Below, in pieces: positions 142 to 23,618 of a DNA stretch of 64,000 bases. How positions within the stretch are numbered: position 1 is the stretch's first letter; every line of letters begins with the position of its first letter. The stretch lies in contig CAIWTU010000057.1 of NCBI GenBank assembly GCA_903915655.1, forward strand, positions 1 through 64,000, given 5' to 3'. The notes below the pieces were generated by a model that made no database searches, was not told the origin of the DNA, and saw only the letters and a list, made by a program, of their open reading frames with translations. A program made the translations under genes and the position numbers. This DNA is from an uncultured Geobacter sp. (GTDB lineage: Bacteria > Desulfobacterota > Desulfuromonadia > Geobacterales > Geobacteraceae).

Positions 142-222
142 TCTTTTGCCTAACCTGTTATTATTGGTAAAAGGGTAAGGGGTGGGCAATAGTGTCTTAA
201 TCATTTTATCTGGAGGGTGTTA

Positions 223-1455: not shown

Positions 1456-1473
1456 ACTAAATAAAGGGACGAT

Positions 1474-2556: not shown

Positions 2557-2561
2557 AGATA

Positions 2562-2642
2562 ATGGTTAAGCACTACCCCCTCTCTCTTGAATTGATGAAC
2601 AATGAAAGAGAAGAATTAAGAGAGGATAAGAGATCAGCGTGA
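2562..2642 (+). CDS. Candidate 26-residue small ORF coupled to the next gene
   Basis: A short open frame (MVKHYPLSLE...) begins at ATG 2562 after AGGTAGAG. It ends in a TGA that overlaps the GTG start of the following gene in a GTGA arrangement, the usual sign of translational coupling. The peptide is highly charged in its second half. Nothing about its function is recognisable. It may be a leader that delivers ribosomes to the weakly preceded GTG 2639, or chance. Confidence 0.25.
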   Translation: MVKHYPLSLELMNNEREELREDKRSA

Positions 2643-3724: not shown

Positions 3725-3740
3725 CGGCACACCACAGCAA

Positions 3741-4712: not shown

Positions 4713-4795
4713 GGGAGATCCCATTACTCAATCAGACTATGACTCAGAGACGCCAATTGCCGAAGAGGCTCAACTACCCCCGGGAATAGAACGCC

Positions 4796-6689: not shown

Positions 6690-8221
6690 TGAGCTACTTC
6701 AAGGTAATAATGAAAAACGTTGTCTCTAACTGGGCCAATATGGCCACTTCCTTGGTCATTTCCTTTTCCCTTGCGCCATTCATTCTTCACAAAATAGGAA
6801 ATACTTATTACGGCGTGTGGGCTGTTGCCTCCCAGGTTACCGGTTATCTCTGGCTGATGGATTTCGGAGTGAGGGACTCCGTTGTCAAGTACGTGGCGGA
6901 ATACCATGAAAAAAAGGACGACGGGATGCTTAACGATATCATCAATGCATCCCTGAAGCTCTATTCCATTGTCTGCTGCGCTTGCCTGGTGCTTACTTTC
7001 ATTCTTGCCTTTTTCTTCCCTATGATTTTCAGCGGGTTGCGGGGGACAGCTTCCACGGCCCAGCTTCTGGTGATTATAACCGGCATTGATATCGCCCTGA
7101 CCTTTGTGTTCAACGTCTTTATCGGTATATTGATGGGGCTGCAAAGATTTGATGTCTTCAGCAAGATTTCCATTGCCCTCACCATCGCCAGGGCTCTCCT
7201 CACCGTTTTCTTCCTGAGCAAGGGGTATGGCGTAGTGGCGATTTGTCTGATCCAGTTTCTTGCCAATTGTTGCATGAATATAATGGTGTACGCCGTTTCC
7301 AGAAGGCTGCTCTGCTACCGGTTGAATTTCCGGAGATATGGGAGGGGGAGAGATATTTACAAGTTGCTCCTCAACTACAGCTTCTTTGTATTCCTGAATT
7401 GTATTGCCTTGCAGGTCTTCTCCTTCAGCTCCAACTTTATTATCGCAATCTTCCTCCCCGTATCCTCGGTGACCTTTTTTGCCATAGCGGCCAGTCTCAT
7501 CGAGTATATGAGAAAAATTATTTGGGCCGGAACCCAGGCCTTCAGCCCCCTGACCAGCCAGCTGGACGCCAAAAATGACGCTTCCAGGGTCATTCTGTTG
7601 CTGGTCAAAGGGTCCAAGTTTTCTCTCCTTCTCGGTCTTCCTGTAGGTACGGTCTATCTGATTATGGGAAAGCAGTTCATAGGATTATGGATGGGTTTCG
7701 AGTATGCGACCATCACCGGAAACATTCTTGCCGTATTAACGGTTATGACTCTCTTTTCGCTCCCACATTACACCATTAGCGGCATCCTCCTGGGGCTGAA
7801 CAAACACCATTTGATGGCATACTGCCGTGTAGTTGAAGCCATAGCCAATATCTGCCTCAGCCTCCTGCTGATCAGGCATATGGGCCTTTTGGGCGCTGCC
7901 CTGGGGGTCGCAATTCCACACCTGATCATGGTGATCTTTGTCCTGCCGGTTCTTGTTTCAAGGGCGTTAAATATAAAACTTTTTTATTATTTCAGGTTTT
8001 CGTACTGCGGCCCACTTATCTCTATAATCCCTTTTGCCCTTGCGTGTCTATTAGCCCATCACTTTTTCACACCACGATCGCTTATTACCTTTTTTGCCGA
8101 GATATTGCTCCTGCTTCCTGCCTACATAGCTGCGGCCTGGTTTTTCGCCATTTCAAAGGAGGAACGACAGCACTGTAAAGAAATGATCTTTGCATTGGCC
8201 CCCGCCGCGTTGGGGCGATGA
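6689..8221 (+). CDS. Oligosaccharide flippase family protein (Wzx-like)
   Basis: A 510-residue integral inner-membrane protein with about 12-14 hydrophobic segments, in the MOP/MATE polysaccharide-transport superfamily. It is expected to flip the undecaprenyl-linked repeat unit from the cytoplasmic to the periplasmic face. Family-like features are the short N-terminus entering the first membrane helix (SLAPFILHKIGNTYYGVWAV), the W-L-M-D-F-G-V-R motif near residues 52-59, and paired helices throughout. The ATG overlaps the stop of the hydrolase gene by one base, so it belongs to the same operon. Together with the Wzy-like protein at 12318 it suggests Wzx/Wzy-type assembly. Confidence 0.85.
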   Translation: MSYFKVIMKNVVSNWANMATSLVISFSLAPFILHKIGNTYYGVWAVASQVTGYLWLMDFGVRDSVVKYVAEYHEKKDDGMLNDIINASLKLYSIVCCACLVLTFILAFFFPMIFSGLRGTASTAQLLVIITGIDIALTFVFNVFIGILMGLQRFDVFSKISIALTIARALLTVFFLSKGYGVVAICLIQFLANCCMNIMVYAVSRRLLCYRLNFRRYGRGRDIYKLLLNYSFFVFLNCIALQVFSFSSNFIIAIFLPVSSVTFFAIAASLIEYMRKIIWAGTQAFSPLTSQLDAKNDASRVILLLVKGSKFSLLLGLPVGTVYLIMGKQFIGLWMGFEYATITGNILAVLTVMTLFSLPHYTISGILLGLNKHHLMAYCRVVEAIANICLSLLLIRHMGLLGAALGVAIPHLIMVIFVLPVLVSRALNIKLFYYFRFSYCGPLISIIPFALACLLAHHFFTPRSLITFFAEILLLLPAYIAAAWFFAISKEERQHCKEMIFALAPAALGR

Positions 8222-8260
8222 TGACGGCAATCCTACTGATGGGGATCGGTTTGATTTGCA

Positions 8261-9328
8261 ATGTGGAAAAGAGTCATCCTGCGTGATACAGCCATGGAAA
8301 TGACAATTGATCATTATAACGAAGATAGCTCTACCTGGGACGCCTTTGTTGCCTCCCATAATGACAGCACCAATTACCACCGGTATGGCTGGCGAAAGGT
8401 AATAGAAAAGAGCTTTGGCCATAAGACGTATTATCTCACTGCCAGAGACGGTAATGGCGAAATTCAGGGTCTATTGCCGCTTACTCATATGAAAAGTAGG
8501 CTTTTCGGGAACTTTCTGGTTTCGCTTCCCTTTTTCAATTACGGCGGACTGCTGTGCAATGATGATGAAACCGCCTCAGCCCTGCTGGATGAAGCCGGCC
8601 GGATACTTGGTGATGTAAATGCAGACTATGCTGAGCTGCGTCACTTGAACGTCCGCAGGCAAGAGCTTGCGACTAAAGAACTCAAGGTCACGATGATCCT
8701 TCCTCTCCAGAATGATGATGAGGCCCAGTGGAAGGCACTGGATGCCAAGGTGCGGAATCAGGTGCGCAAGGCGGAAAAGAGCGGGCTGGAAACCGTTTCC
8801 GGGCATCTGGATCTTCTAGACGGGTTTTACGAGGTGTTCTGCCGTAACATGAGGGACTTGGGTACGCCTGTATATGGCAGGAATTTCTTCCAAAACGTTC
8901 TGGAAACCTTCCCTGAAACGACACGGATCATTTCTGTGATGCTGGGAGACAAGGCGGTTGCTTCCGGTATCCTTACCTGGTTCAGGGATTCTCTGGAAGT
9001 ACCATGGGCATCATCTATCAGTGACCACAAGAATAAATGTCCGAACAATATGCTTTACTGGGAAGCAATACGTTTTGCTATCAGGAACGGCTCAGCTAAA
9101 TTCGACTTCGGCCGTTCAACACCGGGAGAGGGGACCTTCATCTTCAAGAAACAGTGGGGAGCCAAACCGGTGCAGCTTTACTGGCAGTACCTGCTCAAGG
9201 ACGGAGAAAGAGTGCCGGAACTGAACACAAAGAACCCGAAGTATGAGTTGGCCATAAAGGTCTGGCAACGGTTGCCGATCACACTGACCAAGGTCCTCGG
9301 ACCACGGATCGTGAAAAACATTCCATGA
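8261..9328 (+). CDS. FemAB-like protein of the exosortase/PEP-CTERM system type
   Basis: A GNAT/FemAB-fold protein matching what is known of the FemAB family found with exosortase A. Visible features are AWDAFV-like TWDAFVASH near the N-terminus, FFNYGGLL, the ARNxxRKAEKSGL-type basic helix (VRNQVRKAEKSGLE) and FDFGRSTPGEGTFIFKKQWGA near the C-terminus. The last motif is characteristic of this group. The longest frame starts at 8261. ATG 8294 or 8300 would align better with the usual short N-terminus, and none has a convincing ribosome site. Proposed role: transfer of an amino-acid or acyl group to the exported polysaccharide (inference). Confidence 0.75.
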   Translation: MWKRVILRDTAMEMTIDHYNEDSSTWDAFVASHNDSTNYHRYGWRKVIEKSFGHKTYYLTARDGNGEIQGLLPLTHMKSRLFGNFLVSLPFFNYGGLLCNDDETASALLDEAGRILGDVNADYAELRHLNVRRQELATKELKVTMILPLQNDDEAQWKALDAKVRNQVRKAEKSGLETVSGHLDLLDGFYEVFCRNMRDLGTPVYGRNFFQNVLETFPETTRIISVMLGDKAVASGILTWFRDSLEVPWASSISDHKNKCPNNMLYWEAIRFAIRNGSAKFDFGRSTPGEGTFIFKKQWGAKPVQLYWQYLLKDGERVPELNTKNPKYELAIKVWQRLPITLTKVLGPRIVKNIP

Positions 9329-9472
9329 CCCGAACAGGCAGAGCAATTGGATGCAGGTAAACGCAGATTGCCACAGATTGAGTCTATAAGAGTTTTTGAG
9401 AATTATTGATTTTAAAATCCGCGTGGATCAGATCTGATCCGTCTCCAATTAAGGTTTTTATCCGGGGTCTAC

Positions 9473-10678
9473 ATGGCATTTCGTATAGGAAGAACACTCC
9501 CCCCGGCGGCATCGCCTATTTACCTCAAGGATATCGTCTCCGGGATAACCGGACTATTCCGGGGTGGGAAAACTATCACAAAGTTCGAAGAGGAACTGAG
9601 GGAGTATTACCAGGTCAGGCACTGTTTTGCTGTTTCATCTGGAAAGACGGCGTTGACAGTCATACTCCAATCCCTCAAGGCGATGTTTCCTGAGCGGGAC
9701 GAAGTGCTGATTCCCGCCTTTACCTGCTATTCTGTACCATCAGCAGTAATCCGCGCTGGTCTCAGGATAAGGTTGTGCGATCTGGATATGGAGACATTCG
9801 ATTTTGATCATGCGCAGTTGTCACGTATCTTATCCGGGGAGAACCCCCGGCTGCTTTGCATCCTTCCTGTCCATCTTTTCGGTCTACCGGCCGATGTAAC
9901 CCGCATCAAAAATATGATCTCAGGCAGGGATATCGTAATCGTCGAAGACGCTGCGCAGGCGATGGGGGGTAATTCTGAGGGGAAAAAACTCGGAACCCTT
10001 GGAGACGTCGGTTTTTTCAGCCTCGGGCGAGGGAAGGCGCTTTCCACCGTTGAGGGCGGCATCATTTTAACCGGGCGTGATGATATTGCTGGCCAATTGC
10101 GAAGGAGTATGAATGAAATAGTAAATTATGGCACTGTCGAGGTCGTTCAAATGCTTTTTTATGCGGTTGCCTTGATGTTACTGCTGCGGCCCCCCTTGTT
10201 CTGGCTTCCCAGGGCACTTCCCTTTTTGAGGCTCGGAGAAACAATCTATGACCCGAACTTTAAAATGAGAAAGATGTCCGAGTTTCAGGCGGGATTGGCC
10301 AGAGGATGGGAGGGCAAATTGCGAATCCTGCAAAAGACCCGTTCCGAAAATGTCCGGGGATTGCTGGAAAGACTGGAAAGAATACCCCTCTGGCTTGAAA
10401 AAGGCGCTCTTCCTGATATCATAAGGTTACCCTTGAGAATGGATTCAATTACGAGGAGGAGATCCATATTGAGAGCAAGTGAACAATCAGGACTCGGAAT
10501 CGCCGGTACATATCCCGATTCGGTTGACAGCATCCCGGAGTTGAAGACCCATTTTACGACATTTGATTTTCCGGTTGCTAGAAAAAACGCCAAAGAGCTT
10601 CTGACACTGCCAATACATCCGTATATAACCAGTAATGACATGGACCGGATTGCCGAACTGCTGAAAAGCGAGGAATGA
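9473..10678 (+). CDS. DegT/DnrJ/EryC1/StrS-family PLP aminotransferase
   Basis: PLP-dependent sugar aminotransferase fold, 401 residues. The internal-aldimine lysine is K188 in SLGRGK, followed by TVEGG, and VEDAAQA carries the PLP-ring-binding Asp. Members convert keto-sugar nucleotides to amino sugars, or act in related roles in polysaccharide loci. It is preceded by a 144-bp gap and overlaps the exosortase start by 4 bp (ATGA), so the two are translationally coupled. A strongly hydrophobic segment around residues 222-245 is unusual for a soluble aminotransferase and may be a membrane-association patch. The substrate cannot be told. Confidence 0.8.
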   Translation: MAFRIGRTLPPAASPIYLKDIVSGITGLFRGGKTITKFEEELREYYQVRHCFAVSSGKTALTVILQSLKAMFPERDEVLIPAFTCYSVPSAVIRAGLRIRLCDLDMETFDFDHAQLSRILSGENPRLLCILPVHLFGLPADVTRIKNMISGRDIVIVEDAAQAMGGNSEGKKLGTLGDVGFFSLGRGKALSTVEGGIILTGRDDIAGQLRRSMNEIVNYGTVEVVQMLFYAVALMLLLRPPLFWLPRALPFLRLGETIYDPNFKMRKMSEFQAGLARGWEGKLRILQKTRSENVRGLLERLERIPLWLEKGALPDIIRLPLRMDSITRRRSILRASEQSGLGIAGTYPDSVDSIPELKTHFTTFDFPVARKNAKELLTLPIHPYITSNDMDRIAELLKSEE

Positions 10679-11514
10679 TCACCCTGATGAAACCCGATAC
10701 AGCAAAAATATCCTTACTGATGCTTCTCTGGGCGCTGATCTTCTATCCGGTATATCCCGGCTTGATTGAGGCGTGGTTCGGAATGGCCAATTCCGACAAT
10801 TCCTATGGGTTGCTGGTCCCGTTTATATCCCTTTATTTCATATGGCAAAGGAGGGAAGAGCTGAAATTGGCTGCATTTTCAACCTCGATTTCAGGTCTGA
10901 TCATCCTGATTGCAAGCGCATTGATTTATCTCGTGAGTTATGCCGGCGGAGTCGTTTTTGTCCAGCGCCTGATGATAGTTCTTTCATTGATCGGCCTGGT
11001 CCTTTATCTTTTCGGACCGGAAATATTCAGGATCGTGAGATTCCCCCTGCTGTTTCTCTTTTTCATAGCGCCTATCCCAGAGTCGATGGTTAATATCCTT
11101 TCATTCCCGCTGCAAACCTATGCTACGATCATTTCGTCCAAGATAATCGAGTTATGCGGCATCCCGGTATACAGGGAGGGTCACATGCTCTACTTTTCCC
11201 AGACACAACTGGAGGTGGCCGAGGCTTGCAGCGGCATTCGCTCGGTTTCGGCAATGTTGATGCTCTCGGTGGTATTCATGCATCAATGCGAAAATAATCG
11301 CCTGCGAAAAGTAATCATCATATCGTCTTCCATTGTTATTGCATTGTTAGCAAACATCCTGCGTGTAAGCGGAACTGGTATCCTCGCACATTTTTTTGGG
11401 GACAGGGTGGCCAAGGGGTTTCTGCATGAATTTTCCGGCATAGCTGTTTTTGCAGTAGGTTTTGCTATGCTGTTTGTTGAATACAAACTGCTGAACAGAA
11501 AATGGTTTCAGTGA
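10675..11514 (+). CDS. Exosortase (EpsH/XrtA-like transpeptidase)
   Basis: An inner-membrane cysteine transpeptidase that, by family knowledge, cleaves PEP-CTERM sorting signals of exported proteins and links them to an envelope component. About eight hydrophobic segments are visible. The catalytic triad is intact: C185 in EACSGIRS, R230 in NILRVSG and H251 in FLHEFSG. It overlaps the aminotransferase by 4 bp and the EpsI gene by 13 bp. At 279 residues it is a stand-alone exosortase without a fused EpsI domain. No PEP-CTERM protein is seen in this window, so its substrates must lie elsewhere. The exact exosortase subtype is inferred from the neighbourhood only. Confidence 0.9.
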   Translation: MITLMKPDTAKISLLMLLWALIFYPVYPGLIEAWFGMANSDNSYGLLVPFISLYFIWQRREELKLAAFSTSISGLIILIASALIYLVSYAGGVVFVQRLMIVLSLIGLVLYLFGPEIFRIVRFPLLFLFFIAPIPESMVNILSFPLQTYATIISSKIIELCGIPVYREGHMLYFSQTQLEVAEACSGIRSVSAMLMLSVVFMHQCENNRLRKVIIISSSIVIALLANILRVSGTGILAHFFGDRVAKGFLHEFSGIAVFAVGFAMLFVEYKLLNRKWFQ

Positions 11515-12194
11515 TAGACAGTTTTATGACAACGAACTTCAAAATATCGATGCACTCTTTTTTTATAGCCCTGGCAATCTTGACATTGACCTTATTACTT
11601 GCTATCGCAATAACTGCACGCGGAAAGCCGGTTGTCGTCAAGACGAACCTTGAAAACCTCCCGATGCTAGTCAACGGCATGCAGGGGGTTGAAGATTTTT
11701 ATTCTGAGTCGGTTTACTCGGCATTGAATGCGGACAGCCATGTTTACCGCCACTATCTGACCCGTGACGGCAGACGGCTTGATCTTTATATCGGTTATTA
11801 CGGGACAGCCAAAGGGGGGAGGACGGCACATAATCCGATAGGGTGTCTCCCGGGCCAGGGATGGGGTTTGCTTGAATCGAAGGAGATCATTCTTAAGCCC
11901 AGCTATTATCCTGGGGGGATTCCGGTAAACTTTCTCCTCTCTTCCAAGGGGGACACGTTTGTTACAACAATCTACTGGTACCAGTCGGCTGGTACAAAAG
12001 TCATCTCGAACGGAATCAGGCACAATATCCAGCGGTTTATGGGGATGGTCTTACACAACAGAAATGACGGGGCCTTTGTCCGGATAACGATCCTTTCTGA
12101 TAAGTCAGATGCCGGAGCCGCAAAAATGCTTGCGGAGACCTTCTCTGTCGGGATACTTAACCTGTTGCCAGACTATTGGCCTGTAGAAAAATAG
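11502..12194 (+). CDS. epsI: Exosortase-associated protein EpsI (DUF3485)
   Basis: A 230-residue protein with one N-terminal membrane anchor (about residues 17-37) and a periplasmic domain of the EpsI type. The diagnostic block is YYGTAKGG followed by HNPIGCLPGQGW (about residues 97-125), which matches the family pattern of HxPxxCLPGxGW. EpsI is nearly always next to or fused with an exosortase; its biochemical role is not established. It overlaps the exosortase gene by 13 bp. The first Met may be at 11502 or at the in-frame ATG 11526. It is the last gene before the AT-rich block. Confidence 0.85.
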   Translation: MVSVIDSFMTTNFKISMHSFFIALAILTLTLLLAIAITARGKPVVVKTNLENLPMLVNGMQGVEDFYSESVYSALNADSHVYRHYLTRDGRRLDLYIGYYGTAKGGRTAHNPIGCLPGQGWGLLESKEIILKPSYYPGGIPVNFLLSSKGDTFVTTIYWYQSAGTKVISNGIRHNIQRFMGMVLHNRNDGAFVRITILSDKSDAGAAKMLAETFSVGILNLLPDYWPVEK

Positions 12195-12230
12195 TTCCCC
12201 TTCAGACCCCCTGTTTCCAGGAGGCGGACG

Positions 12231-12305
12231 ATGGAAGAAGATCTGAGACTCAGACGTCGAATCAAGAGAGGCTATTACTGTGAATTATCATTATCAGTCG
12301 GATAG
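12231..12305 (+). CDS. Candidate 24-residue small ORF
   Basis: In the 123-bp gap between epsI and the polymerase gene, ATG 12231 is preceded by AGGAGG with a 6-base spacer, a better ribosome site than those of most neighbours. The frame encodes a short, Arg-rich peptide (MEEDLRLRRR...) ending at TAG 12303-12305, 12 bp before the next gene. No function is recognisable. It could be a remnant of a larger gene at the junction to the AT-rich block or a leader ORF. Confidence 0.25.
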   Translation: MEEDLRLRRRIKRGYYCELSLSVG

Positions 12306-12317
12306 TTATTTGTCGAT

Positions 12318-13559
12318 ATGACGACCTCGGCAGAATTTACTAAAAAACAGGATGAAACCGGACTGTTATTCATACTGTTTTGTATATGGTCAGTTGTACT
12401 TATATGCCGACCACAAGATTATCTATTGTTTTTGGGACCATTGAGGCCAGGGTTAATATTATTCATAATCACAATTAGTTGTTATTTGATAAATCACAAA
12501 AAATTAAAGGCAAGTGTATCTAATATTCAAATCAAGCTTTACCAATATCTTATTATCATGATAGTTGCGAGCATTCCTTTTTCATATTATCGAAGGCTTT
12601 CATTTAATGAATTATTTTTATATTGCAATGTTATCCTCTTTTTTTTCTTGTTCTACAAAACGGTTGATTCAGTATCAAAATTACGCATAGTATTGTTCGT
12701 TTACTCTCTAGGCAGTTCAATCTACGCGATATTCTGTTTGCGCTTTGGGAAATTTTCTGCAGAGAGATTGGGTTTTGGAGAGACATTAGATCCAAACGAC
12801 ATTGCATATTTTATGGTTAGTTTTTTAACATTCAATCTATTGTTTTTGCGCAAAGATAATAATGTTTTATTGCGGTGCGTATCTTTTGCAAACATATTGC
12901 TTTGTTCTCTTGCGCTACTCAAGACCGGTTCACGGGGTGGTTTGCTCTCTCTCTTATTGGTAATTATTGTATTGTTGTTTGGGAGATCCTTAACATTAAA
13001 TCTATCTTTTATAAAAAAAATAGCAATTTTTATTTTAACTCTACTCTCTCTTCATTTTGTGGATATGAATACAGAGCGTTACAAGACACTTTTGAGCCCT
13101 AAAACTGACTATAATTTTAATGATGAAACAGGGAGGGTTGCTCTCTGGAAAATGGGAGTTGGCTTGATGCTATCACATCCATTAACTGGAGTTGGTTTAA
13201 GCTGTTTCAATGAAGGCATTGGCCGAGAACGTGAGAAGCGAGGATTGCCGCCCAAGTGGCAAACTGCTCATAATAGTTTGATCCAGATAGGTGCTGAAAC
13301 AGGATTGATTGGATTCTTCCTTTTCGCCGTACTCAGTTTTAACGCATTCAAAATTTTCGGGGAAATTGTCAAAAAATCTAAGGTTGAAGATTTGGCTAAA
13401 ATTGGAGAGTTGGCTAGAATTGGGTTCATAGGGCATTTTGTTAGCGCAATGTTTCTGAGCCAAGCCTACTCGGTTTATTGGGCATTCTATATAGTTTTAT
13501 CAGCGGTACTAAAACAGATGCTGGATAATGAATCAATAGCAACGGTAACAGTATCGTGA
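12318..13559 (+). CDS. O-antigen ligase/polymerase family membrane protein (Wzy-like)
   Basis: A 413-residue polytopic inner-membrane protein with about 10-12 hydrophobic segments and a large periplasmic loop. The Wzy_C/O-antigen-ligase pattern is visible: KTGSRGGLLSLLL, then in the long loop HPLTGVGL and HNSLIQIGAETGLIG. Such proteins polymerise repeat units or ligate glycan to an acceptor in the periplasm. It begins the visibly AT-rich block (codons ending in A/T, long T runs), unlike the genes before it. The ribosome site upstream of ATG 12318 is poor. Confidence 0.8.
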   Translation: MTTSAEFTKKQDETGLLFILFCIWSVVLICRPQDYLLFLGPLRPGLILFIITISCYLINHKKLKASVSNIQIKLYQYLIIMIVASIPFSYYRRLSFNELFLYCNVILFFFLFYKTVDSVSKLRIVLFVYSLGSSIYAIFCLRFGKFSAERLGFGETLDPNDIAYFMVSFLTFNLLFLRKDNNVLLRCVSFANILLCSLALLKTGSRGGLLSLLLVIIVLLFGRSLTLNLSFIKKIAIFILTLLSLHFVDMNTERYKTLLSPKTDYNFNDETGRVALWKMGVGLMLSHPLTGVGLSCFNEGIGREREKRGLPPKWQTAHNSLIQIGAETGLIGFFLFAVLSFNAFKIFGEIVKKSKVEDLAKIGELARIGFIGHFVSAMFLSQAYSVYWAFYIVLSAVLKQMLDNESIATVTVS

Positions 13560-13647
13560 GCTTTCTGGAGACATTTGAGCGTGAACTGAATTTATTGTGA
13601 ATCCCGGGATGGGGATAATAACCTGAATATCTAAATGGAGGATTTTA

Positions 13648-14538
13648 ATGGACCAAGGACTAGTATCTAAGTTAATTTGCCCGCCATGTAAGGAAAAGCT
13701 TTTATATCGAGAATCAGGCTTGATTTGTCATAAATGTGGTCAGGTATATAACTTCGTTAGTGGTATGCCAAATTTTCTTCCGGATAACCTTATGGATAAA
13801 TACAATTCCGAACTGAAATTTCAGGATTTGCACGAAGAAATGAATTTTTATCAAAACATGTACGAAAATCTGAAAGGGATAGATGATGGACATTGTGTCG
13901 TATACGGTTACGAGGAGATTTATAATTTCATGTCAGATATCCCTAGAGGTTCTCTCCTCGATGTCGGGTGCGGTGCCGGACATCATAGTAAGGACCTGTC
14001 TTCTTTAGGTTATGAAGTCACTGGTATCGATATATCTGTCAATGGGCTCCTGCAAGCACAGAGTGTAAGCAAAGCAGATGATCAAAAAATAAATTTTGTG
14101 ATCGGTGACGTCGAAAACCTGCCATTTGATGATGATTCTTTTGATGTTGTCTTCTGCAGCCTTATACTGCATCACTTTCCCAAGAGAAACAAACTCCTGA
14201 AAGAAATTAGCCGAGTATGTAAACGGTATTTTGTAACTTTTGAAGTAAACTCTTACGATCCAATATCCTTTATCAGATTTAATATAGTAAATCCTACTAT
14301 AGGCATAAGCACTATTACAAAGAACCAGCGTACGGTTTCTCCAGACAAACTCAGGAATGAACTTTGTAAACTCGGACTGAAAAACAGTAGCATCAAGTAT
14401 GTTGATGTTCACAATTATACGGGAAGAAATCCGGATAGTATTAAAGCTAAAATGCTGAACGTCTACAAAAAGGTATCCAACTTGCTCCCATACAAATGCC
14501 GTTTTAATTTATTTATCATGAAAGCTACAAAATTATAA
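13648..14538 (+). CDS. SAM-dependent methyltransferase with N-terminal zinc ribbon
   Basis: A 296-residue class I methyltransferase. The N-terminus carries a Trm112-like zinc ribbon (C11-x2-C14 and C27-x2-C30, ending GMPNFLPD). The Rossmann core shows LLDVGCGAG (D105-G111), the acidic strand GIDIS and the FDVVFCSLILHHF motif. It probably methylates a sugar or lipid intermediate of the surrounding glycan pathway (inference from neighbours). GGAGG precedes the ATG at good spacing. Base usage is AT-rich, like the flanking genes. Confidence 0.8.
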   Translation: MDQGLVSKLICPPCKEKLLYRESGLICHKCGQVYNFVSGMPNFLPDNLMDKYNSELKFQDLHEEMNFYQNMYENLKGIDDGHCVVYGYEEIYNFMSDIPRGSLLDVGCGAGHHSKDLSSLGYEVTGIDISVNGLLQAQSVSKADDQKINFVIGDVENLPFDDDSFDVVFCSLILHHFPKRNKLLKEISRVCKRYFVTFEVNSYDPISFIRFNIVNPTIGISTITKNQRTVSPDKLRNELCKLGLKNSSIKYVDVHNYTGRNPDSIKAKMLNVYKKVSNLLPYKCRFNLFIMKATKL

Positions 14539-14550
14539 GTGGATAATATC

Positions 14551-15729
14551 ATGGTAAAAATCGCATATATTCTCACCCCCATAGAATTCGGGGGGTTGGA
14601 AAAAGTCAGCCTAACATTCCTCAAGAATGTAAACAGGGAACAGTATGACATACATTTAATACTTCTGATTCGACCTTGGGAAGAAGACAACACTTTTATA
14701 AATTTTATAAAAAGTTACGATTTTTCTATCACAACAATTCCAGTTGCCAGATGGTCTCCAACTGAAAGAAGAGATTATCTGAGAGTGGCAAGATGCGTGG
14801 TGTATTTGTATCGGATATTATCTAAGGGATCGTTCGACGTTGTTCACTCCCATGGGTATTTTGCCGATATTATTACAGCATTGGCATGTAAATTTCTGAA
14901 AATTCCGCATATAAGCACCTGCCACGGATTTATTGCCAATGATAAAAATTTGAAAATATACAATATTTTGGACAGATTTATGCTTCGTTCTTGCGGTAGG
15001 ATTATAGCCGTTTCATCAGGGATAATGAGTGAACTGGTGAGAAACGGTATCAATGCTTCACGGGTCACTGTTATCCAGAATGCTGTCGACTGTTCCGACA
15101 AAGACAAACAGATTGATGAAAACAGAATAGAAAAAAGAAATTTTCTTTCTATAGATAAGAACAAGTTTTTAATTGGTTATGTTGGTCGGCTAAGCGAAGA
15201 GAAGGGGGTTAATTATTTGATCGAAGCAGCCTCCATGTTGAAGCAATTAAATGAAACTTTTAACCTGGTAATCCTGGGTGATGGTCCAAAGAAAAGTGAA
15301 TTATGCAGTCAAGCTAATTCTAAAGGCCTCGATAATGAAATTATTTTTACAGGATTTCAAAAGGATATTGATAGATGGTTGCCTGCACTGGATGTTTTTG
15401 TTTTACCTTCTTTAACAGAAGGCACTCCCATGGCACTGCTCGAAGCAATGTCCATGGGGATACCCGTTATCGCGTCTGCTGTAGGAGGAGTCCCGGGTAT
15501 AATAAAAAATGGAGTTAACGGGTTTCTTCTGGATCCTGGTGATTATAAGGGGTTGAGTGAAACAATAACTCTTTTAATAAATGATCCCCCCCTTCGCAAA
15601 AAGCTGGCGGCTGAGGGTGTTCATACTATTAAAGAGATGTTTGATGTTAATAAGTGGTGCAGAAAGATTGAAAGTGAATATAACTCGCTCCTGCGAAAGG
15701 AGAAGAGAGGCATGATTTCATGTGGTTGA
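14551..15729 (+). CDS. Family 4 glycosyltransferase
   Basis: GT-B retaining glycosyltransferase of the GT4 family. The N-terminal domain has the glycine-rich PIEFGGLEKVS loop and HSHGYFAD. The C-terminal nucleotide-sugar domain has GYVGRLSEEKG, ILGDGPKK and the E-x7-E motif region SLTEGTPMALLEAMSMG. ATG 14551 is chosen because its N-terminus (MVKIAYILTP) matches the family; a GTG at 14539 would add four residues. It overlaps the next gene by 10 bp. Likely cytoplasmic and acting on lipid-linked sugar; donor unknown. Confidence 0.85.
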   Translation: MVKIAYILTPIEFGGLEKVSLTFLKNVNREQYDIHLILLIRPWEEDNTFINFIKSYDFSITTIPVARWSPTERRDYLRVARCVVYLYRILSKGSFDVVHSHGYFADIITALACKFLKIPHISTCHGFIANDKNLKIYNILDRFMLRSCGRIIAVSSGIMSELVRNGINASRVTVIQNAVDCSDKDKQIDENRIEKRNFLSIDKNKFLIGYVGRLSEEKGVNYLIEAASMLKQLNETFNLVILGDGPKKSELCSQANSKGLDNEIIFTGFQKDIDRWLPALDVFVLPSLTEGTPMALLEAMSMGIPVIASAVGGVPGIIKNGVNGFLLDPGDYKGLSETITLLINDPPLRKKLAAEGVHTIKEMFDVNKWCRKIESEYNSLLRKEKRGMISCG

Positions 15730-16919
15730 CTGCTTTTAATATCTTAATAGTGTTGCTCATGTTATACGCGGCTTTTGCCACGCTTTACCTCCTGGTTTTA
15801 GCTGGGGCATATTTTATTTTACCCGAACCCGAGAAGATAGATCATTATAAATTTAACCGCTTCGCCGTTATAGTTCCCGCACACAATGAAGAATTGCTTA
15901 TCTCCAGGTTATGCGAAAGTTTGTCACATTTAGATTACTCGGGGTCATTATATAAAGTTATTATTATTGCCGATAATTGCACTGATCATACGACTGAGGT
16001 TTGCTCCAAATACAGCTGTGAAGTACTGATCCGGAGTGATGAGTTGAAACTAGGAAAAGGCCATGCTATAGCCTGGGCATTAAATCAGATCCCCTTGGAT
16101 GATTATGATGCAATTTTGATTATAGACGCTGATAATTATGTGGATTGCAATCTGTTGCACGAATTGAATAAAATATTAACTAATGGCGAGCATGCAATAC
16201 AATGTTGCAATTCTGTGGGTAACAGGAATGACAGCTGGTTTACACAGCTGCTTTTTGTTACGAGAACCATCAATAATCTTCTTTATCATCACTCCAAATA
16301 CAAGTTGGGCCTCTCATCATATCTGATGGGGAACGGAATTTGTTTTACCACGAAACTGATCAAGGAAAAGGGGTGGACAGCTTTTACTATCGGCGAGGAT
16401 TGGGAATATTATGCGCAACTTCTTGATGAGAAGATAAAAATAGCATTTGCGCTGCATGCAAAAGTTTTTCACCAGGAGTCTAAGTCACTGGACCAGGCAA
16501 CCAGTCAGCGATTACGGTGGTCCAGTGGCAGATTCCATGTGGCAAAAGGTCTTGGACTTCAAATATTAATTAAGGGGATTCGCCGTTTTGATGGCATGTT
16601 AGTAGATGCTTCATTGCCGTTGCTTTTTCCGAACTACTCTTTATTGCTTAATCTCTCCTTAATTTCACTATGCGCCGTCTTAATTATTGCTGTTCCCCCG
16701 TATCGCAATCTTATGATTTTCTCCTTTTTATCTATTTTGTTTGGGCAATTTATACTTTTATGTCTCGGCATAATTTTGAGTGGCGAAGTTATTAAGGTTA
16801 TAAAAGCGCTTACTTATGCGCCGGCGTTTTTAATTTGGAAAATTGCAATAGATTTCATCAGTTTTACAGGTATTTATAGAGGTAAGAAATGGATAAGGAC
16901 TAAGAGGCACATATCGTAA
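15720..16919 (+). CDS. Membrane-bound family 2 glycosyltransferase
   Basis: A 399-residue processive-like GT2: one N-terminal membrane segment (about 5-30), a cytoplasmic GT-A domain with VIVPAHNEE, IADNCTDHT and IIDADN, a Q-x-x-R-W-like motif (SQRLRWSSGR, about residues 261-270) and three to four C-terminal membrane helices. The layout resembles N-acetylglucosaminyltransferases and cellulose-synthase-like enzymes that elongate or export a polymer, but single-sugar transfer is equally possible. The start lies inside the end of the GT4 gene (10-bp overlap). Confidence 0.8.
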   Translation: MWLTAFNILIVLLMLYAAFATLYLLVLAGAYFILPEPEKIDHYKFNRFAVIVPAHNEELLISRLCESLSHLDYSGSLYKVIIIADNCTDHTTEVCSKYSCEVLIRSDELKLGKGHAIAWALNQIPLDDYDAILIIDADNYVDCNLLHELNKILTNGEHAIQCCNSVGNRNDSWFTQLLFVTRTINNLLYHHSKYKLGLSSYLMGNGICFTTKLIKEKGWTAFTIGEDWEYYAQLLDEKIKIAFALHAKVFHQESKSLDQATSQRLRWSSGRFHVAKGLGLQILIKGIRRFDGMLVDASLPLLFPNYSLLLNLSLISLCAVLIIAVPPYRNLMIFSFLSILFGQFILLCLGIILSGEVIKVIKALTYAPAFLIWKIAIDFISFTGIYRGKKWIRTKRHIS

Positions 16920-16950
16920 TCGCAGCATAAGTTTTTACAATCATATATTC

Positions 16951-18105
16951 ATGAGTAGGCATATGGGATCTGATTCCAAAATAAATTTGATGCATACCGT
17001 TCTCAGTCTCGAAACCGGGGGGTTGGAACGGATGGTTGCTGAGAGTGCTCTGGCCATCGACAAGAAGCTGTTTAAGGTTGATATCTGCTGTTTCGACAGA
17101 CTCGGAGATTTTGCAGACAAACTTGAGAGTAACGGTGTTGGCGTGACTCTCCTCCCAAGGAATCAGTATCAATATGATTATCTGTTCCCAATAAAATTAA
17201 AAAAACTATTAATAGAAAATAAAACTCACATAATTCATATGCATACTGGGACTTTTTTCCTCGGTACACAGGCTTCTATCTTGGCAAGGACGCCAGCGAG
17301 GATCTATACGGAACATGGAAGAAAACTGGTTGAACCCAAAAAACATCTCTTAATGGATCGCGCTTCTGCCATCTTTGTTGATAAGATTGTTGCCGTTTCC
17401 AAAGAGCTTGAAGACTTTCTTGTAAGTGTCGTAAAAATCCCTCACAAGAAAACCATGACCATTATCAATGGAATTGATACGAATAAATACACATTTCGCG
17501 CCAAACCCCTTGCCTTGCTAAAAGAATTTGGTATTGCTGAAAATGCTAAAGTAGTTGGAACCGTTGGAAGGTTAGCTGAAGTCAAGGATCAGGTAAGCTT
17601 GATTGAGGCTTTCAGTATAGTTAATCATAAATTCCCCGATAGCATTTTGATGCTGGTGGGGGATGGACCTATGAGATCCGCATTGCAGGAACTGGTTATG
17701 GCTAAAGGATTGGATGATAATGTCATATTTGCGGGAAATAGAATGGATGTTCACGAGCTGTTAAACCTACTAGATGTCTTTTTGTTGACCTCACTGTCGG
17801 AGGGAACCTCAGTAGCTTTGCTTGAAGCAATGGCCTCCGGGATTCCCTCTGTTATTACGGATGTTGGCGGGAACCCATCTGTTGTCACGAATGGAATAAA
17901 TGGCTTATTGGTAAAGCCCAAGGATGTAGCCCGCATAGCTGACAGTATATTTTATATATTGAATAATGAAGCTGCCAGTATATTAATCGGTCAAAATGCT
18001 GCTAATACCGTTAAAGCTGACTATAGTATTGAAATTATGTTGAAGAATTACACTGAGTTGTATCGCGGATTAATAAAGTACCAGTTTGAGGAGTTGATAG
18101 CGTAA
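16951..18105 (+). CDS. Family 4 glycosyltransferase
   Basis: GT-B glycosyltransferase related in layout to the gene at 14551. It shows the N-terminal LETGGLERMVAESA loop, HIIHMHTGTF, YTEHGR, then GTVGRLAEVKD, LVGDGPMR and SLSEGTSVALLEAMASGIP with the conserved glutamates. There are two possible starts, ATG 16951 and 16963; neither has a strong ribosome site. It lies in the same AT-rich glycan cluster and probably adds one sugar to the repeat unit. Confidence 0.85.
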   Translation: MSRHMGSDSKINLMHTVLSLETGGLERMVAESALAIDKKLFKVDICCFDRLGDFADKLESNGVGVTLLPRNQYQYDYLFPIKLKKLLIENKTHIIHMHTGTFFLGTQASILARTPARIYTEHGRKLVEPKKHLLMDRASAIFVDKIVAVSKELEDFLVSVVKIPHKKTMTIINGIDTNKYTFRAKPLALLKEFGIAENAKVVGTVGRLAEVKDQVSLIEAFSIVNHKFPDSILMLVGDGPMRSALQELVMAKGLDDNVIFAGNRMDVHELLNLLDVFLLTSLSEGTSVALLEAMASGIPSVITDVGGNPSVVTNGINGLLVKPKDVARIADSIFYILNNEAASILIGQNAANTVKADYSIEIMLKNYTELYRGLIKYQFEELIA

Positions 18106-18156
18106 TCTCTATATATTCTAATGTGTTGTGTCTGCCTATAAAAGGGATCGAGAAAT

Positions 18157-19428
18157 ATGGTTGCAACTATAAGTGATTCCAGGTTGTTTCGAAACAAATT
18201 GCTTTGTTATCTGATGATTATCTTTGTTCTCGGCACGCTGTTAAGAATTGCGCCAATAATTTATATGGAAATTAAATCACCTGGATGGCATGAACAAAAC
18301 ATAAACGAGATTGAGTTCTATTATGACGATGTTGCCAGGAGTTTACTGATCGGAAAAGGTTTTGTACATTCCGTCAATCCTAGAATTGATAATTACAAGT
18401 ATAAGTTTGAACCTGGGACACCATTTAACTTTGTTCCTCCTTTGTATGCATGGTTATTGTATTTGGTATATTCAGTTGCAGGTCCGAGTGTCTTTGTCGC
18501 AAAGCTGTTGCAATCTGTTATGGATGCGACCGTGATTTTTTTATTATACCAGTTGGGGAGCAAAATATTTAATGACAAACGAATAAGTGTGTTGGCCGGA
18601 ATATTATATGCCATCTACCCGCTGGCAATTGTGATGTGTTCAACATTGTATTACCAGATACCGATGAACCTTGTCTTATGTTGGCTGGTTATCTGTTTCA
18701 TGTCGGTTCCCACTATTTATAATGGAATCTGGACTGGAATTGCTCTTGGTGTAGCTACTCTGGCAAAACCTGTTACGTTACCACTTATCGTTGTTATGCC
18801 GTTTGTGCGGTTGATTGAGACGATATTCGGTAATAAAGCGTTCATGCAAACATTCAAGTGGGTCGTTTTTTTTCTGCTTGCTGTTATTTTGGCATTAACC
18901 CCATGGACAATTAGAAACTATAAAGTATTTAATGAATTTGTTCCAGTACAAAAAGGTGCAAACGCACCTTTATTGCAGGGTTCTCGAGAAGATTTTATCG
19001 ATTTGGATGTAAATAGCCTACGAGTAAAATATGGTCAAACTTTTGGGATTGATCCAAAAGATTACACCAAGGTAGCCATATATAATCACTTAAATCATTT
19101 TAAGAATAATCCGTTAGATTATTTCAGACTCTTGGGTAAAAAGTTTTTTTTGTCATGGTATAATACTGAAGGGAAGAAGAAAAATGGTGTAGTTTTGTTG
19201 ATTCAGATCCCGTTCCTCTCTTTTGCCTTGGTTTCTCTATTCCTCTCAGGAAAAACGTGGTGTTGCAAATCAAACTGGTATGTCCCTGGCATTATCGTAT
19301 TTATATGTGGAGTTGAAGTAATATTTTTCCCCCTCATGAGATATACTTTGGTTGTAATGCCATTCGTAATGCTTATGGCAGCTCATGGGGCATATATCGT
19401 ATGGAATAAGCTTACAGGCAAAGTCTAA
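18157..19428 (+). CDS. GT-C membrane glycosyltransferase (GT39/GT83, ArnT/PMT-like)
   Basis: A 423-residue polytopic protein with a first-loop acidic region (EFYYDDVARSLL, about residues 51-62, where GT-C enzymes place a catalytic acidic residue), then about ten membrane helices. The LTPWTIRNYKVFNEFVPV segment (about residues 247-264) is characteristic of the PMT_2/ArnT superfamily. Such enzymes use polyprenyl-phosphate sugars in the periplasm. The two genes that follow (a DPM-like GT2 and an SMR-like carrier) are just what is needed to make and flip such a donor. An AAGGGATCGAG ribosome-site region precedes the ATG. Confidence 0.8.
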   Translation: MVATISDSRLFRNKLLCYLMIIFVLGTLLRIAPIIYMEIKSPGWHEQNINEIEFYYDDVARSLLIGKGFVHSVNPRIDNYKYKFEPGTPFNFVPPLYAWLLYLVYSVAGPSVFVAKLLQSVMDATVIFLLYQLGSKIFNDKRISVLAGILYAIYPLAIVMCSTLYYQIPMNLVLCWLVICFMSVPTIYNGIWTGIALGVATLAKPVTLPLIVVMPFVRLIETIFGNKAFMQTFKWVVFFLLAVILALTPWTIRNYKVFNEFVPVQKGANAPLLQGSREDFIDLDVNSLRVKYGQTFGIDPKDYTKVAIYNHLNHFKNNPLDYFRLLGKKFFLSWYNTEGKKKNGVVLLIQIPFLSFALVSLFLSGKTWCCKSNWYVPGIIVFICGVEVIFFPLMRYTLVVMPFVMLMAAHGAYIVWNKLTGKV

Positions 19429-19477
19429 TTTCTGATCAAACAGAACCCCTGTTAATTATCTTATTTTCGAGGGCAAG

Positions 19478-20401
19478 ATGCTAAATGGGAAATATGTCGT
19501 CGTTGTTATACCAGCTTATAATGTGGGTCTGCAAATCTCCGGCACAATTGAGGGTATTAAGCCATTTGTTGATCATATTGTTGTTGTTGACGACTGTAGT
19601 TTTGATAACACTTACGATATAGTCAAATCTCTGAATAACAATAGAGTTACTTTGCTGCGAAACAGTGAAAACCAGGGGGTTGGTGGAGCGACCACGGAAG
19701 GATTTAAAAAAGGATTGGAACTCGGGGGCGACATCTTTATTAAATTTGATGGAGATGGTCAGATGGACCCGGAAAGGATGGAAGATCTTATCACGCCAAT
19801 CTTTGATGGGTATGATTACGTTAAAGGTAACAGGTTTATTCATACAGACGCATTGAATAATATGCCTTTGTTCAGGCTATCGGGGAATTTCCTGTTGACA
19901 TTCTTGACTAAGCTGGCGTCAGGGTATTGGAAAATATTTGACCCACAAAATGGATATGTGGCGATCACCAGAGAAGCTCTTATGACGTTACCTTTAGGCA
20001 ACTTATATAAGAGGTATTTTTTTGAAAATGACATGCTTGTTAATTTGAATATTAATAGATTAAGAGTAATTGATGTCAGTATGCCGGCGAGATACGGTGA
20101 TGAAAAATCTTCGTTAAAAATAAGGAAAATTATTTTTTCTTTTCCAAGCCTGCTTTTAGCCCGGTTTATACGGAGGATTTACAAGAAGTACATTTTATAT
20201 GATTTTTCAGTTATAGGGTTCTTTTATGTCATTGGGTTTTTTCTGATGCTATTTGGTTCGACATTTGGAGGTTATCATTGGATTAAATCAGTTTATACGG
20301 GTTCCGTTGCAACAACCGGGACGGTTATGATTGCTGTCCTGCCAATAATTCTTGGTTTCCAAATGTTTCTGCAGGGAATTGTCCTTGAAATTGAGCAATA
20401 G
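19478..20401 (+). CDS. Polyprenyl-phosphate glycosyltransferase (DPM/ArnC/GtrB-like GT2)
   Basis: A 307-residue GT2 with VVVIPAYNVG, VVVDDCSFDNT and FDGDGQMDPE (the DxD-like motif of dolichol-phosphate mannose synthases). A soluble catalytic part of about 230 residues is followed by two C-terminal membrane helices, the GtrB/ArnC layout. Expected reaction: transfer of a sugar from NDP-sugar to undecaprenyl phosphate at the cytoplasmic face. Neighbours supply the flippase and the periplasmic GT-C enzyme. Sugar identity is unknown. Confidence 0.8.
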   Translation: MLNGKYVVVVIPAYNVGLQISGTIEGIKPFVDHIVVVDDCSFDNTYDIVKSLNNNRVTLLRNSENQGVGGATTEGFKKGLELGGDIFIKFDGDGQMDPERMEDLITPIFDGYDYVKGNRFIHTDALNNMPLFRLSGNFLLTFLTKLASGYWKIFDPQNGYVAITREALMTLPLGNLYKRYFFENDMLVNLNINRLRVIDVSMPARYGDEKSSLKIRKIIFSFPSLLLARFIRRIYKKYILYDFSVIGFFYVIGFFLMLFGSTFGGYHWIKSVYTGSVATTGTVMIAVLPIILGFQMFLQGIVLEIEQ

Positions 20402-20453
20402 CAAGGCAAATCCTTGAATTATCAATGTCTTAATAAGTAGGCAGGAATATCAT

Positions 20454-20807
20454 ATGACTCTCTGTAAAATAGTATGGGGTTTGACCTGTGTTGTATCTAT
20501 ATCGGTTGGACAAATATTATTCAAATTGGCCTCCAGAAAGATTGTCTTTAACGACTATTCACAAGTTATTTTTGATTTAGTTCGCAACAAATATTTAATT
20601 ATTGGGCTTGTGTTGTATGGATTAACAACTATGCTCTGGATTGGTTTGTTGAGAATAGTTGATTTGAGGTATGCCTATCCATTAATGGCGTTAGCATTCG
20701 TTATTGTTCCAATTCTAGCAAAATATTTTCTTGGCGAGGAATTGAAATTCAACTCTGTTTTGGGGGGATTAATTATTATTGCCGGGGTTTTTGTCAGTGT
20801 CAGATAA
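20454..20807 (+). CDS. SMR/EamA-family four-helix carrier (ArnE/ArnF-like flippase subunit)
   Basis: A 117-residue protein with four membrane helices. SVGQILFKLAS in helix 1 and IVDLRYAYPLMALAFVIVP in helix 3 are typical of the small multidrug-resistance-like ArnE/ArnF branch, which flips undecaprenyl-phosphate-aminoarabinose. In context it probably flips the polyprenyl-phosphate sugar made by the preceding GT2 gene for use by the GT-C gene at 18157. ArnE/F form a pair, so a single copy here would need to be a homodimer or have a distant partner. It is the last gene of the AT-rich block. Confidence 0.75.
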   Translation: MTLCKIVWGLTCVVSISVGQILFKLASRKIVFNDYSQVIFDLVRNKYLIIGLVLYGLTTMLWIGLLRIVDLRYAYPLMALAFVIVPILAKYFLGEELKFNSVLGGLIIIAGVFVSVR

Positions 20808-20983: not shown

Positions 20984-21059
20984 ACACGATAATACTAAAC
21001 CATTCGTGAGAATGGGGCGGAAAGCCTAAAGGGTCTCAGTGAGATAGCCGGGTTGCCGA
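20984..21059 (+). promoter_or_regulatory. GEMM-I class riboswitch aptamer, likely the cyclic AMP-GMP (GEMM-Ib) subclass
   Basis: The sequence fits the GEMM-I fold. A 6-bp helix CCATTC/GAATGG (21000-21005 with 21010-21015) is closed by the GNRA loop GTGA. It is followed by GGGGCGGAAAGCC, a second hairpin TCTC-AGT-GAGA (21034-21044), and the conserved AGCCGGGTTGCCG ending at 21058. The 5' element reads ACTAAACC instead of GGCAAACC of typical c-di-GMP aptamers, putting A at the ligand-contacting position that is G20 in Vc2. From memory, this ACUAAACC...GGCGGAAAGCC form is that of Geobacter GEMM-Ib RNAs that bind 3',3'-cGAMP. The ligand is an inference. Confidence 0.8.
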
Positions 21060-21098
21060 AATACCCAATTTTGGTATTAAGGATCCGGCTATTTTTTT
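21045..21098 (+). terminator. Riboswitch expression platform: intrinsic terminator
   Basis: TAGCCGG (21045-21051) pairs with CCGGCTA (21085-21091), with an inner AATACC/GGTATT helix, and is followed by seven T (21092-21098). The 5' arm is the same AGCCGGG strand that the aptamer needs for its last helix. Ligand-bound aptamer and terminator are therefore mutually exclusive, predicting ligand-activated read-through into the gene at 21348. Confidence 0.85.
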
Positions 21099-21347: not shown

Positions 21348-23618
21348 ATGAAACGGTTAAATAGTTTATCATCGCTTTTTACAACTCGGGCTTTCTCGTT
21401 ACGCATCAGTTTGTTTGCCTTAGTGCTTTTGATCACCTCAACAAGTTATGCAGCCGTGTTATTTAGGGAGAATTTTGATGCCTGGCCAACAGGATGGACT
21501 TGTTCCACTGCTTCTCCCAACGCTTTTATGCAGGTGTGGAATTGCGGGGATATAGCAGCCACATGTAACGGTTCATCACGCCCATTTCAGAAAGGACAAG
21601 GGATCAGTGCGAATGGTCGTTCGGGGAAAGCCATGCAATACCCTCGAAGTTCATGTGATGCCAACGGTTATCTGGGGGATTTGCACATGGATCTTTACGG
21701 TAATTTTGGTGGTCCCTACAAAGAACTCTATTTCAGATGGTATGTGAAATTCGAGGAGGGTTTTGATAAAGCAATATCTGAGGGATTCAAGTTCATGGAC
21801 AGGATAATAATTCGTACTCCGTCAGGAGCGGAAGATGACCTCTATCCAAGTCTGCATGGTAGTAAATTGAGCAGTGCAAACTTAATGTTATATGGTGGTT
21901 GGCCCAGCGGTTACTTCGCAACATGGCGGAATATTGCTGATAATGCTTCATTTTATCCTGACCATAATTGGCACTCGATGGAGTTGCGAATAAAACTGAA
22001 TTCACCTGGCCTTGCTGACGGAGCAGTACAGACGTGGATTGATGGGGTGTTGGCTTATTCCTATGAAAACATACTAATAGAAAGTAGCGGAGATTATTAC
22101 TTCAAAATCTTCAGCTTTGGGTTAGGGAATGTGTCTGATTCGTCGTGGGACCAGACTACTTTCAAGTCAATGTATTATGATGATTTTGTTATTAGCACTA
22201 CCTATATCGGTACTGAAACTGTTTCAGTTACCGCTCCCCCTGTTATATCTGGTGGAACTCCATCTGGAACACTGGCTTCCGGGACGACTTCAACCTCAAT
22301 GTCAGTTGCCACGAATGAATCTGCAACCTGCAGATACGGTGCTTACGATGTTGCCTACGCTTCCCTCCCTAATACCTTTACGACAACGGGGGGCACTTCC
22401 CATTCACAGACCCTTTCTGGCCTGACAAATGGTGCCGCATATACCTACTACGTTAGGTGCATTAGTGCCAGCGAAAACGCAAATACTTCAAGCACGGCAA
22501 TATCGTTCAGTGTTGCAAGCAGCGTAACCGTGGTGAACGGAGCCTGTGGGACGGCCAGTGGGAGCTCCTACACTGCTCTTACTTCAAGCAGTGCGAACCT
22601 CTGTGCAAAAGGAACGGTTGCTTCCTTCAGCGGGACTGGCCCGTGGACTTGGGGATGTGATGGATCTGGTGGTGGGACTAGCACGGCTAGTAATGCCTGT
22701 ACCGCTTCTCTTTCAACTTCCACACTCCTGTTCTCTGAAGACTTTGAGAATACGAGTTTCACCTCAAGGGGGTGGTATGATGGGGGTACCTGCAGTATAA
22801 CTACTTCCGAGTACCAATCGGGTACCCATTCAGCCCAGTTTGTATTTACCGCCGGTGCGTCAACTCCCTCGTCACCCTACGCGGGTGCTATGAGAAAACT
22901 ATTTACTGCGTCAGATGGGGTTTATCTCGATTACTATATTAAGTACCCAACCGGTTGGCAAGAGCAGAGTGGTAACTATGGCCACCATGAACTCTATGTG
23001 GCATCGGACGCTGATGATACATATACAAGCCTTGCTTTTGCGCACACGATGGCCTACATAGAACATTGGGGTACATCCGGCTCATCAACAGCTTTAACTC
23101 CTCATATGACAATACAAGATGGAGCAAATATAAACCAAAGCCAGATAGGCGTTGATTTGACAGCTACAACAGAAAACCGTTCTGCTAATGGATGTAACGG
23201 ATTGCTGGATAGTTCTTTTTTCTCCTATCTAAATTGTTATGATTCTGGCAGCGGAACATATTGGAACGGTAAATTAAAGGGTGCAGCTACAGCTTCCATG
23301 TCGCTCAATAGTTGGCATCATGTTCAAGCCTACTTCAAGATGAATAGCGTTACAGCCAATAAGGGGAATGCTGACGGTACAATGGCCTATTGGCTTGACG
23401 GAGTTCAACAATTCCGTTCTGATGCAGTATTGTTCAGAACAAACCAACATGCCACTATGAAGTTTAACCAGTTCATAATTGCGCCGTTCATGGGGAACGG
23501 TGCTCCAAGGGCACAGACGTTTTATATTGACAACCTTAAGGTATGGAGCGGCATCCCTTCGAGTTCCGCAGTCGGCGCAGTAGGGGGGGTCACCGTTAAA
23601 TCGGTAACAAATCCTTAA
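21348..23618 (+). CDS. Secreted protein with two jelly-roll-like domains and Cys-rich linker repeats
   Basis: A 756-residue exported protein. Signal peptide about residues 1-35 (hydrophobic core FALVLLITSTSYA). Domain A (about 37-285) and domain B (about 462-745) both begin L-F-x-E-x-F-[DE], contain WH(S/H) plus an inner WxDGV or YWLDGVQ strand, and end YYDDFVIS or YIDNLKVW. This pattern is seen in concanavalin-like/polysaccharide-lyase jelly rolls. Between them lie an Fn3-like segment (about 297-390) and a repeat with NGACGTASG...GPWTWGCDGSGGG, common in large Geobacter exoproteins. No PEP-CTERM tail or lipobox. AAGGGGG precedes the ATG. It is controlled by the riboswitch above; polysaccharide binding or cleavage is inferred. 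Confidence 0.75.
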   Translation: MKRLNSLSSLFTTRAFSLRISLFALVLLITSTSYAAVLFRENFDAWPTGWTCSTASPNAFMQVWNCGDIAATCNGSSRPFQKGQGISANGRSGKAMQYPRSSCDANGYLGDLHMDLYGNFGGPYKELYFRWYVKFEEGFDKAISEGFKFMDRIIIRTPSGAEDDLYPSLHGSKLSSANLMLYGGWPSGYFATWRNIADNASFYPDHNWHSMELRIKLNSPGLADGAVQTWIDGVLAYSYENILIESSGDYYFKIFSFGLGNVSDSSWDQTTFKSMYYDDFVISTTYIGTETVSVTAPPVISGGTPSGTLASGTTSTSMSVATNESATCRYGAYDVAYASLPNTFTTTGGTSHSQTLSGLTNGAAYTYYVRCISASENANTSSTAISFSVASSVTVVNGACGTASGSSYTALTSSSANLCAKGTVASFSGTGPWTWGCDGSGGGTSTASNACTASLSTSTLLFSEDFENTSFTSRGWYDGGTCSITTSEYQSGTHSAQFVFTAGASTPSSPYAGAMRKLFTASDGVYLDYYIKYPTGWQEQSGNYGHHELYVASDADDTYTSLAFAHTMAYIEHWGTSGSSTALTPHMTIQDGANINQSQIGVDLTATTENRSANGCNGLLDSSFFSYLNCYDSGSGTYWNGKLKGAATASMSLNSWHHVQAYFKMNSVTANKGNADGTMAYWLDGVQQFRSDAVLFRTNQHATMKFNQFIIAPFMGNGAPRAQTFYIDNLKVWSGIPSSSAVGAVGGVTVKSVTNP

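Follow-up and report, generated by a model that had tools for sequence, protein, structure and literature searches.

Riboswitches of the GEMM-Ib subclass are the closest described systems. The solved 3',3'-cGAMP riboswitch consists of P1 (G1–G8/C76–G84), J1/2 (A9–A14), P2 (C15–G40), J2/3 (A41), P3 (A42–U73), and J1/3 (G74–C75) (PMC6274999). The pilM riboswitch is an ON switch in which a G of the terminator captures C75, and its binding of c-GAMP has been shown (PMC9262584). Natural Geobacter aptamers with A at position 20 (A20, Vc2 numbering) are reported to be ~1200- to 1600-fold selective for cGAMP (PMC6456294, PMC8835794), and the A20G mutation makes a GEMM-Ib reporter selective for c-di-GMP (PMC6456294). 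The G20-equivalent has been described as a selectivity factor and no hard filter, and A20 alone leaves some c-di-GMP binding. On the enzyme side, Hypr GGDEF proteins carry Ser instead of Asp at the recognition site and a GGDEF, not a GGEEF, motif (PMC6456294). In the accessible literature, Geobacter cGAMP acts mainly via cytochromes, pili, and metal reduction. Here, we analyzed a candidate element in a 64,000-nt contig stretch of an uncultured Geobacter sp. (the window).

The window contains a GEMM-I aptamer

The window was searched with cmscan. An element on the forward strand matched RF01051 (c-di-GMP-I/GEMM-I) from model position 1 to 87 of 87, and its score exceeded the gathering score of 35 along the whole model (E = 2e-06, computed for 64 kb and 4227 families). 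This agrees with the family assignment of the original prediction. Folding of an aptamer-only transcript placed the start of P1 slightly upstream of the predicted position 20984. The boundaries of the solved riboswitch were mapped onto the sequence, with a numbering offset of 20980 as far as P3 and of 20981 beyond it, because the window P3 has one extra base. Features are listed in Table 1.

Table 1. Features of the riboswitch locus and of the rest of the window
Feature	Position	Strand	Basis
Exopolysaccharide/exosortase-type cluster	217..20807	+	ORFs, Pfam, TIGR03109, EpsI
Whole aptamer with putative P1	20976..21069	+	RNA fold of aptamer-only transcript
Putative P1 strands	5' ~20976-20983, 3' ~21061-21069	+	Paired in aptamer-only RNA fold
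GEMM-I (RF01051) core: J1/2, P2, J2/3, P3, J1/3	20984..21060	+	cmscan, 48.5 bits, full model
ACTAAACC	20994-21001	+	Window sequence
A at selectivity position (A14 of solved cGAMP riboswitch = Vc2 G20)	20994	+	Boundaries from PMC6274999 mapped onto sequence
GGGGCGGAAAGCC	21014-21026	+	Window sequence
J2/3 adenine A41, stacks between two ligand bases	21021	+	PMC6274999 mapping
Intrinsic terminator, start inside aptamer	21044..21098	+	-22.0 kcal/mol, z -4.1
Terminator 5' arm AUAGCCGG	21044-21051	+	Fold
J1/3 cytosine C75, Watson-Crick partner of ligand guanine; G-paired in terminator	21056	+	Mapping and terminator fold
Terminator 3' arm CCGGCUAU	21085-21092	+	Fold; U run to 21098
Target: secreted 756-aa protein	21348..23618	+	ORF; PF21294 39.8 bits (cut-off 27), PF14099 28.6 bits (below cut-off 29.9)
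Aminoacyl-tRNA synthetase, D/K/N type (asparaginyl-like), right after lyase-like gene	23903-25309	+	
T-box leader	50615-50932	+	110.6 bits

The aptamer carries the GEMM-Ib selectivity residue

The window aptamer has A, not G, at the ligand-selecting position, as the original prediction held for its subclass. The contacts named for the solved structure (PMC6274999) were all kept: G8, A9, A11, A12, and C15 at 20988, 20989, 20991, 20992, and 20995, and G40, A41, A42, and C75 at 21020, 21021, 21022, and 21056. With A20 and all other named contacts present, the aptamer is GEMM-Ib by sequence, and the RNA is very probably a riboswitch sensing cyclic AMP-GMP.

The element resembles GEMM-Ib riboswitches such as that of Geobacter metallireducens pilM and the crystallised 84-nt aptamer in family, selectivity-position A, contact residues, and an ON layout with terminator-captured C75. 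It differs in the additional P3 base and in its target, which is polysaccharide-lyase-like instead of pili or cytochromes. The crystallised sequence is presumably ~90% identical to the window aptamer; it had no exact match among the loci examined. With c-di-GMP-I aptamers (GEMM-Ia, such as Vc2) the element shares the Rfam model and the three-helix fold, whereas A replaces G20 and a C–G pair replaces the consensus pair beside it.

Two core changes had been proposed as cGAMP markers. The G20-to-A change was diagnostic, but the GGCGGAAAGCC change, which forms the C15–G40 pair, was also present in the G20-type aptamers of the same genome. This GGAAAGCC feature was common to the A20 and G20 groups, and several A20 aptamers carried GGGACGG. 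Since the C-to-G change of GGGGCGGAAAGCC also occurred in G20-type aptamers (GACGGAAAGCC), GGGGCGGAAAGCC does not mark the cGAMP subclass.

The genome contained 14 GEMM-I aptamers, 13 above the cut-off and one at 34.9 bits. Three were of the A20 type (ATACTAAACC): the window aptamer and those of loci L006 and L010. The other 11 were of the G20 type, mostly AAAGCCAAACC...GGGACGGAAAGCC.

Several of the G20-type loci (L001–L005, L007, L009, and L011–L014) had near-identical cores, and most preceded secreted or lipoprotein-like genes. In most of them the terminator began past the aptamer, and some terminator 5' arms had complementarity to the 5' strand of P3, as in GCCACGGGT. This layout is OFF-type, opposite to that of the A20 set, although L009 appeared to be ON-type.

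A predicted GacA-like Hypr enzyme is encoded in the genome

The genome search returned four GGDEF matches. One, L136:586-2001, combines a receiver and a GGDEF domain, contains GHLVGS and GGDEY, and adjoins a hisS-like gene. It carries Ser for Asp at the nucleobase-recognition site (NDTHGHLVGSS) and a GGDEF-type motif (RYGGDEY). Its top solved match was 6d9m, over 162 residues with an E value of 4e-66 and with Ser at the same site. The deposited name of 6d9m is an endolysin fused to a response-receiver/GAF/diguanylate cyclase; we take it to be the GmGacA construct, which the name and the Ser fit. The Ser signature, GGDEY, the hisS-like neighbour, and the 6d9m match liken L136, known here from its sequence, to GacA (GSU1658-type). 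Thus, the Hypr-type GGDEF gene that was to be looked for is present. Another match (L135) is a canonical cyclase with GHQTGD and GGEEF. A further protein (L137, contig C57:64863-65180), ~0.9 kb beyond the window end, is HAMP-GGDEF-like; it has GGDDF, and its Hypr signature position is occupied by Ser. With only four GGDEF matches, two of them full-length, against 14 GEMM-I aptamers, the genome has many dinucleotide sensors and few synthases.

That the aptamer senses mainly c-di-GMP, or both dinucleotides, despite A20 is improbable. The aptamer does fall in the c-di-GMP-I family model, the genome has the canonical enzyme and 11 G20-type aptamers, and the G20-equivalent has been described as a selectivity factor and no hard filter. 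Against this stand the reported cGAMP selectivity of Geobacter A20 aptamers, the complete set of cGAMP-structure contacts in the window, and the presence in one genome of a separate G20 set and a Hypr enzyme.

The aptamer and a terminator share one strand

None of 200 shuffles folded as well as the terminator. Its 5' arm, AUAGCCGG, overlaps the AGCCGGG strand of the aptamer. In the stem, AUAGCCGG and CCGGCUAU form the outer part, the middle CC/GG takes C75 and C76, and the top AAUACC/GGUAUU draws on the P1 3' strand. Because the terminator is built from the P3/J1-3 and P1 strands of the aptamer, the two folds are mutually exclusive, bearing out the predicted complete ON layout. As in the pilM type, the 3' strand of the aptamer contains the 5' arm of the terminator, which captures C75. 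The minimum-energy fold of the full-length leader was the terminated form (-43.7 kcal/mol), and the energy was -30.9 kcal/mol with the terminator 3' arm blocked. We infer that the window leader switches in a ligand-dependent manner.

Each of the genome's three A20 aptamers shared a strand with a terminator. Among 118 other A20 aptamers, 95 were followed by a U-tailed 3' arm with at least 6 nt of complementarity to the same aptamer strand; with single-base shuffling of the downstream flanks, the mean count was 0.4. A control strand, CGGAAAGCCT, scored 51/118 and was dropped, because GGCTTT tails resemble its complement.

The probable target is a secreted lyase-like protein beside an exopolysaccharide cluster

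The target gene starts 249 nt past the terminator end. Its product has a signal-like N terminus, a lyase-like domain (~88-287), an fn3-like domain (~305-378), and a second lyase-like domain (~452-742). Compared with Polysacc_lyase (PF14099) and Polysacc_lyase_14 (PF21294), the whole protein passed the PF21294 cut-off, whereas most single-domain matches were below; the C-terminal domain alone scored 17.3 bits against PF21294 (cut-off 27). PF14099 was matched at E < 0.001 by 11 of 14 homologs of this domain. R, K, H, Y, Q, D, and N residues are conserved and would be compatible with lyase chemistry. No significant solved relative of the second domain was found in a PDB sequence-profile search. 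An AlphaFold model from a 4-row alignment had a pLDDT of 37 and a pTM of 0.34 and was unusable. The protein may bind or cut a sugar polymer, and we give it about an even chance of having lyase activity.

The gene cluster upstream encodes glycosyltransferases, an XrtA-type exosortase, EpsI, a ligase/polymerase-like protein, and an EamA-like protein. Exosortase A (TIGR03109) scored 209 bits (cut-off 208), and EpsI scored 87.9 (cut-off 42.8). The exopolysaccharide neighbourhood is thus as anticipated. The synthetase gene at 23903-25309 marks the end of the polysaccharide cluster.

The aptamer–lyase link recurs in relatives

The pattern AYACTAAACC-N12-GGGGCGGAAAGCC was present in 76 of 97 related genomes, and the reversed pattern was in none among the matches listed. 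Seventeen relatives had a homolog of the target's second domain (E values of 2.2e-36 or better). For 11 of the 17, an A20 aptamer lay upstream on the same strand, and all of these aptamers matched RF01051 with an ACTAAAC core. The distance to the homolog was 59-255 nt in eight cases and ~1.2 kb, with one gene between, in three. By our estimate, the chance that a given gene has an aptamer at most 1.3 kb ahead of it is well under 1%, even at 22 aptamers per genome. The link was found in three families of the order. Glycosyltransferase genes were near the aptamer–lyase unit in all 10 relatives checked, and two loci (L165 and L170) had a glycosyltransferase resembling the product of window positions 16951-18105.

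At locus L168, the intervening gene encodes a relative of the first, lyase-like domain, with 37% identity to the protein of locus L094 and 28% to the window protein (122 residues). The L094 protein has a two-domain layout like that of the window protein. Given the split lyase-like pair at L168, the window protein appears to be two neighbours fused into one.

Other A20 aptamers preceded PilM-like, cytochrome-like, and many lipoprotein-like genes, as read from the sequences; several aptamers of the same pattern were followed ~400 nt behind by pilM-like genes. These predicted targets are as in the described cGAMP regulon. A search for the cytochrome repeat PF09698 gave no signal, and its controls were silent too.

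The A20 aptamers of L006 and L010 preceded secreted fn3/Big_7 proteins. In one relative (G020), three A20 aptamers within ~5.5 kb stood before two Big_7 proteins and a lyase-like pair, the Big_7 proteins being 62-65% identical to the pair of the window genome. The putative A20-linked trio (two Big_7, one lyase-like) is therefore found again in G020. The Big_7 genes of L006 and L010 (contigs C33 and C32), at 86% identity to each other, are each cut off by the start of their contig, which suggests that a duplicated repeat-rich gene broke the assembly.

It is very improbable that the riboswitch is real but mainly serves an unannotated RNA or a small ORF within 21099-21347, or that an independent promoter drives the 756-aa gene. 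The 249-nt gap leaves room for this reading, and a scan for the sigma-70 class found no promoter consensus upstream. However, the 756-aa gene is the first substantial ORF on the strand, eight of the 11 homologs follow their aptamers closely and the other three behind one gene, and pilM-like genes stand ~400 nt from their aptamers. A decayed or constitutive leader, with a non-binding aptamer and a merely attenuating terminator, is most improbable: a working ON switch would have the terminated minimum-energy fold as well, all binding-site bases are present, P2 and P3 are intact, and several genera and families retain the element ahead of homologous genes.

Proposed model and implications

We are confident that the best explanation is a putative GEMM-Ib ON switch binding 3',3'-cyclic AMP-GMP, with a GacA-like source and a secreted, lyase-like, exopolysaccharide-linked target; its ligand, switching, and protein activity are presumed. 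Without ligand, AUAGCCGGGUUGCC (21044-21057) would pair with CCGGCUAU and GG further downstream, ending transcription at the U run. With cGAMP, presumably supplied by the genome's own GacA-like Hypr GGDEF enzyme, the AUAGCCGGGUUGCC strand would be kept in P3/J1-3, where C75 would pair with the ligand guanine, and A14 would contact the ligand adenine. The P1 3' strand would be kept in P1, the terminator blocked, and the gene at 21348 transcribed. Its product would then act on, or bind, the exopolysaccharide of the adjacent cluster. In the simplest role, a cGAMP-induced secreted lyase-like protein would trim or remodel the polymer of that cluster.

The mechanism of the window riboswitch is unremarkable, and the element is a well-supported additional member of GEMM-Ib. 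The conserved lyase/matrix regulon might be the part that a specialist would not expect. All three A20 aptamers of this genome stand before secreted matrix-type proteins, raising the hypothesis that cGAMP remodels the exopolysaccharide matrix. The genome is also a natural setting in which three aptamers make up a small cGAMP regulon and 11 a large c-di-GMP-type one. A broader and rather doubtful proposal is that in Geobacterales cGAMP turns on an exopolysaccharide-linked secreted set (lyase-like, fn3/Big_7), while c-di-GMP, via mostly OFF-type G20 aptamers, turns off other secreted proteins. If true, two messengers would drive opposite matrix states in one cell, such as trimming of the matrix or loose attachment on one side and a sessile biofilm on the other.
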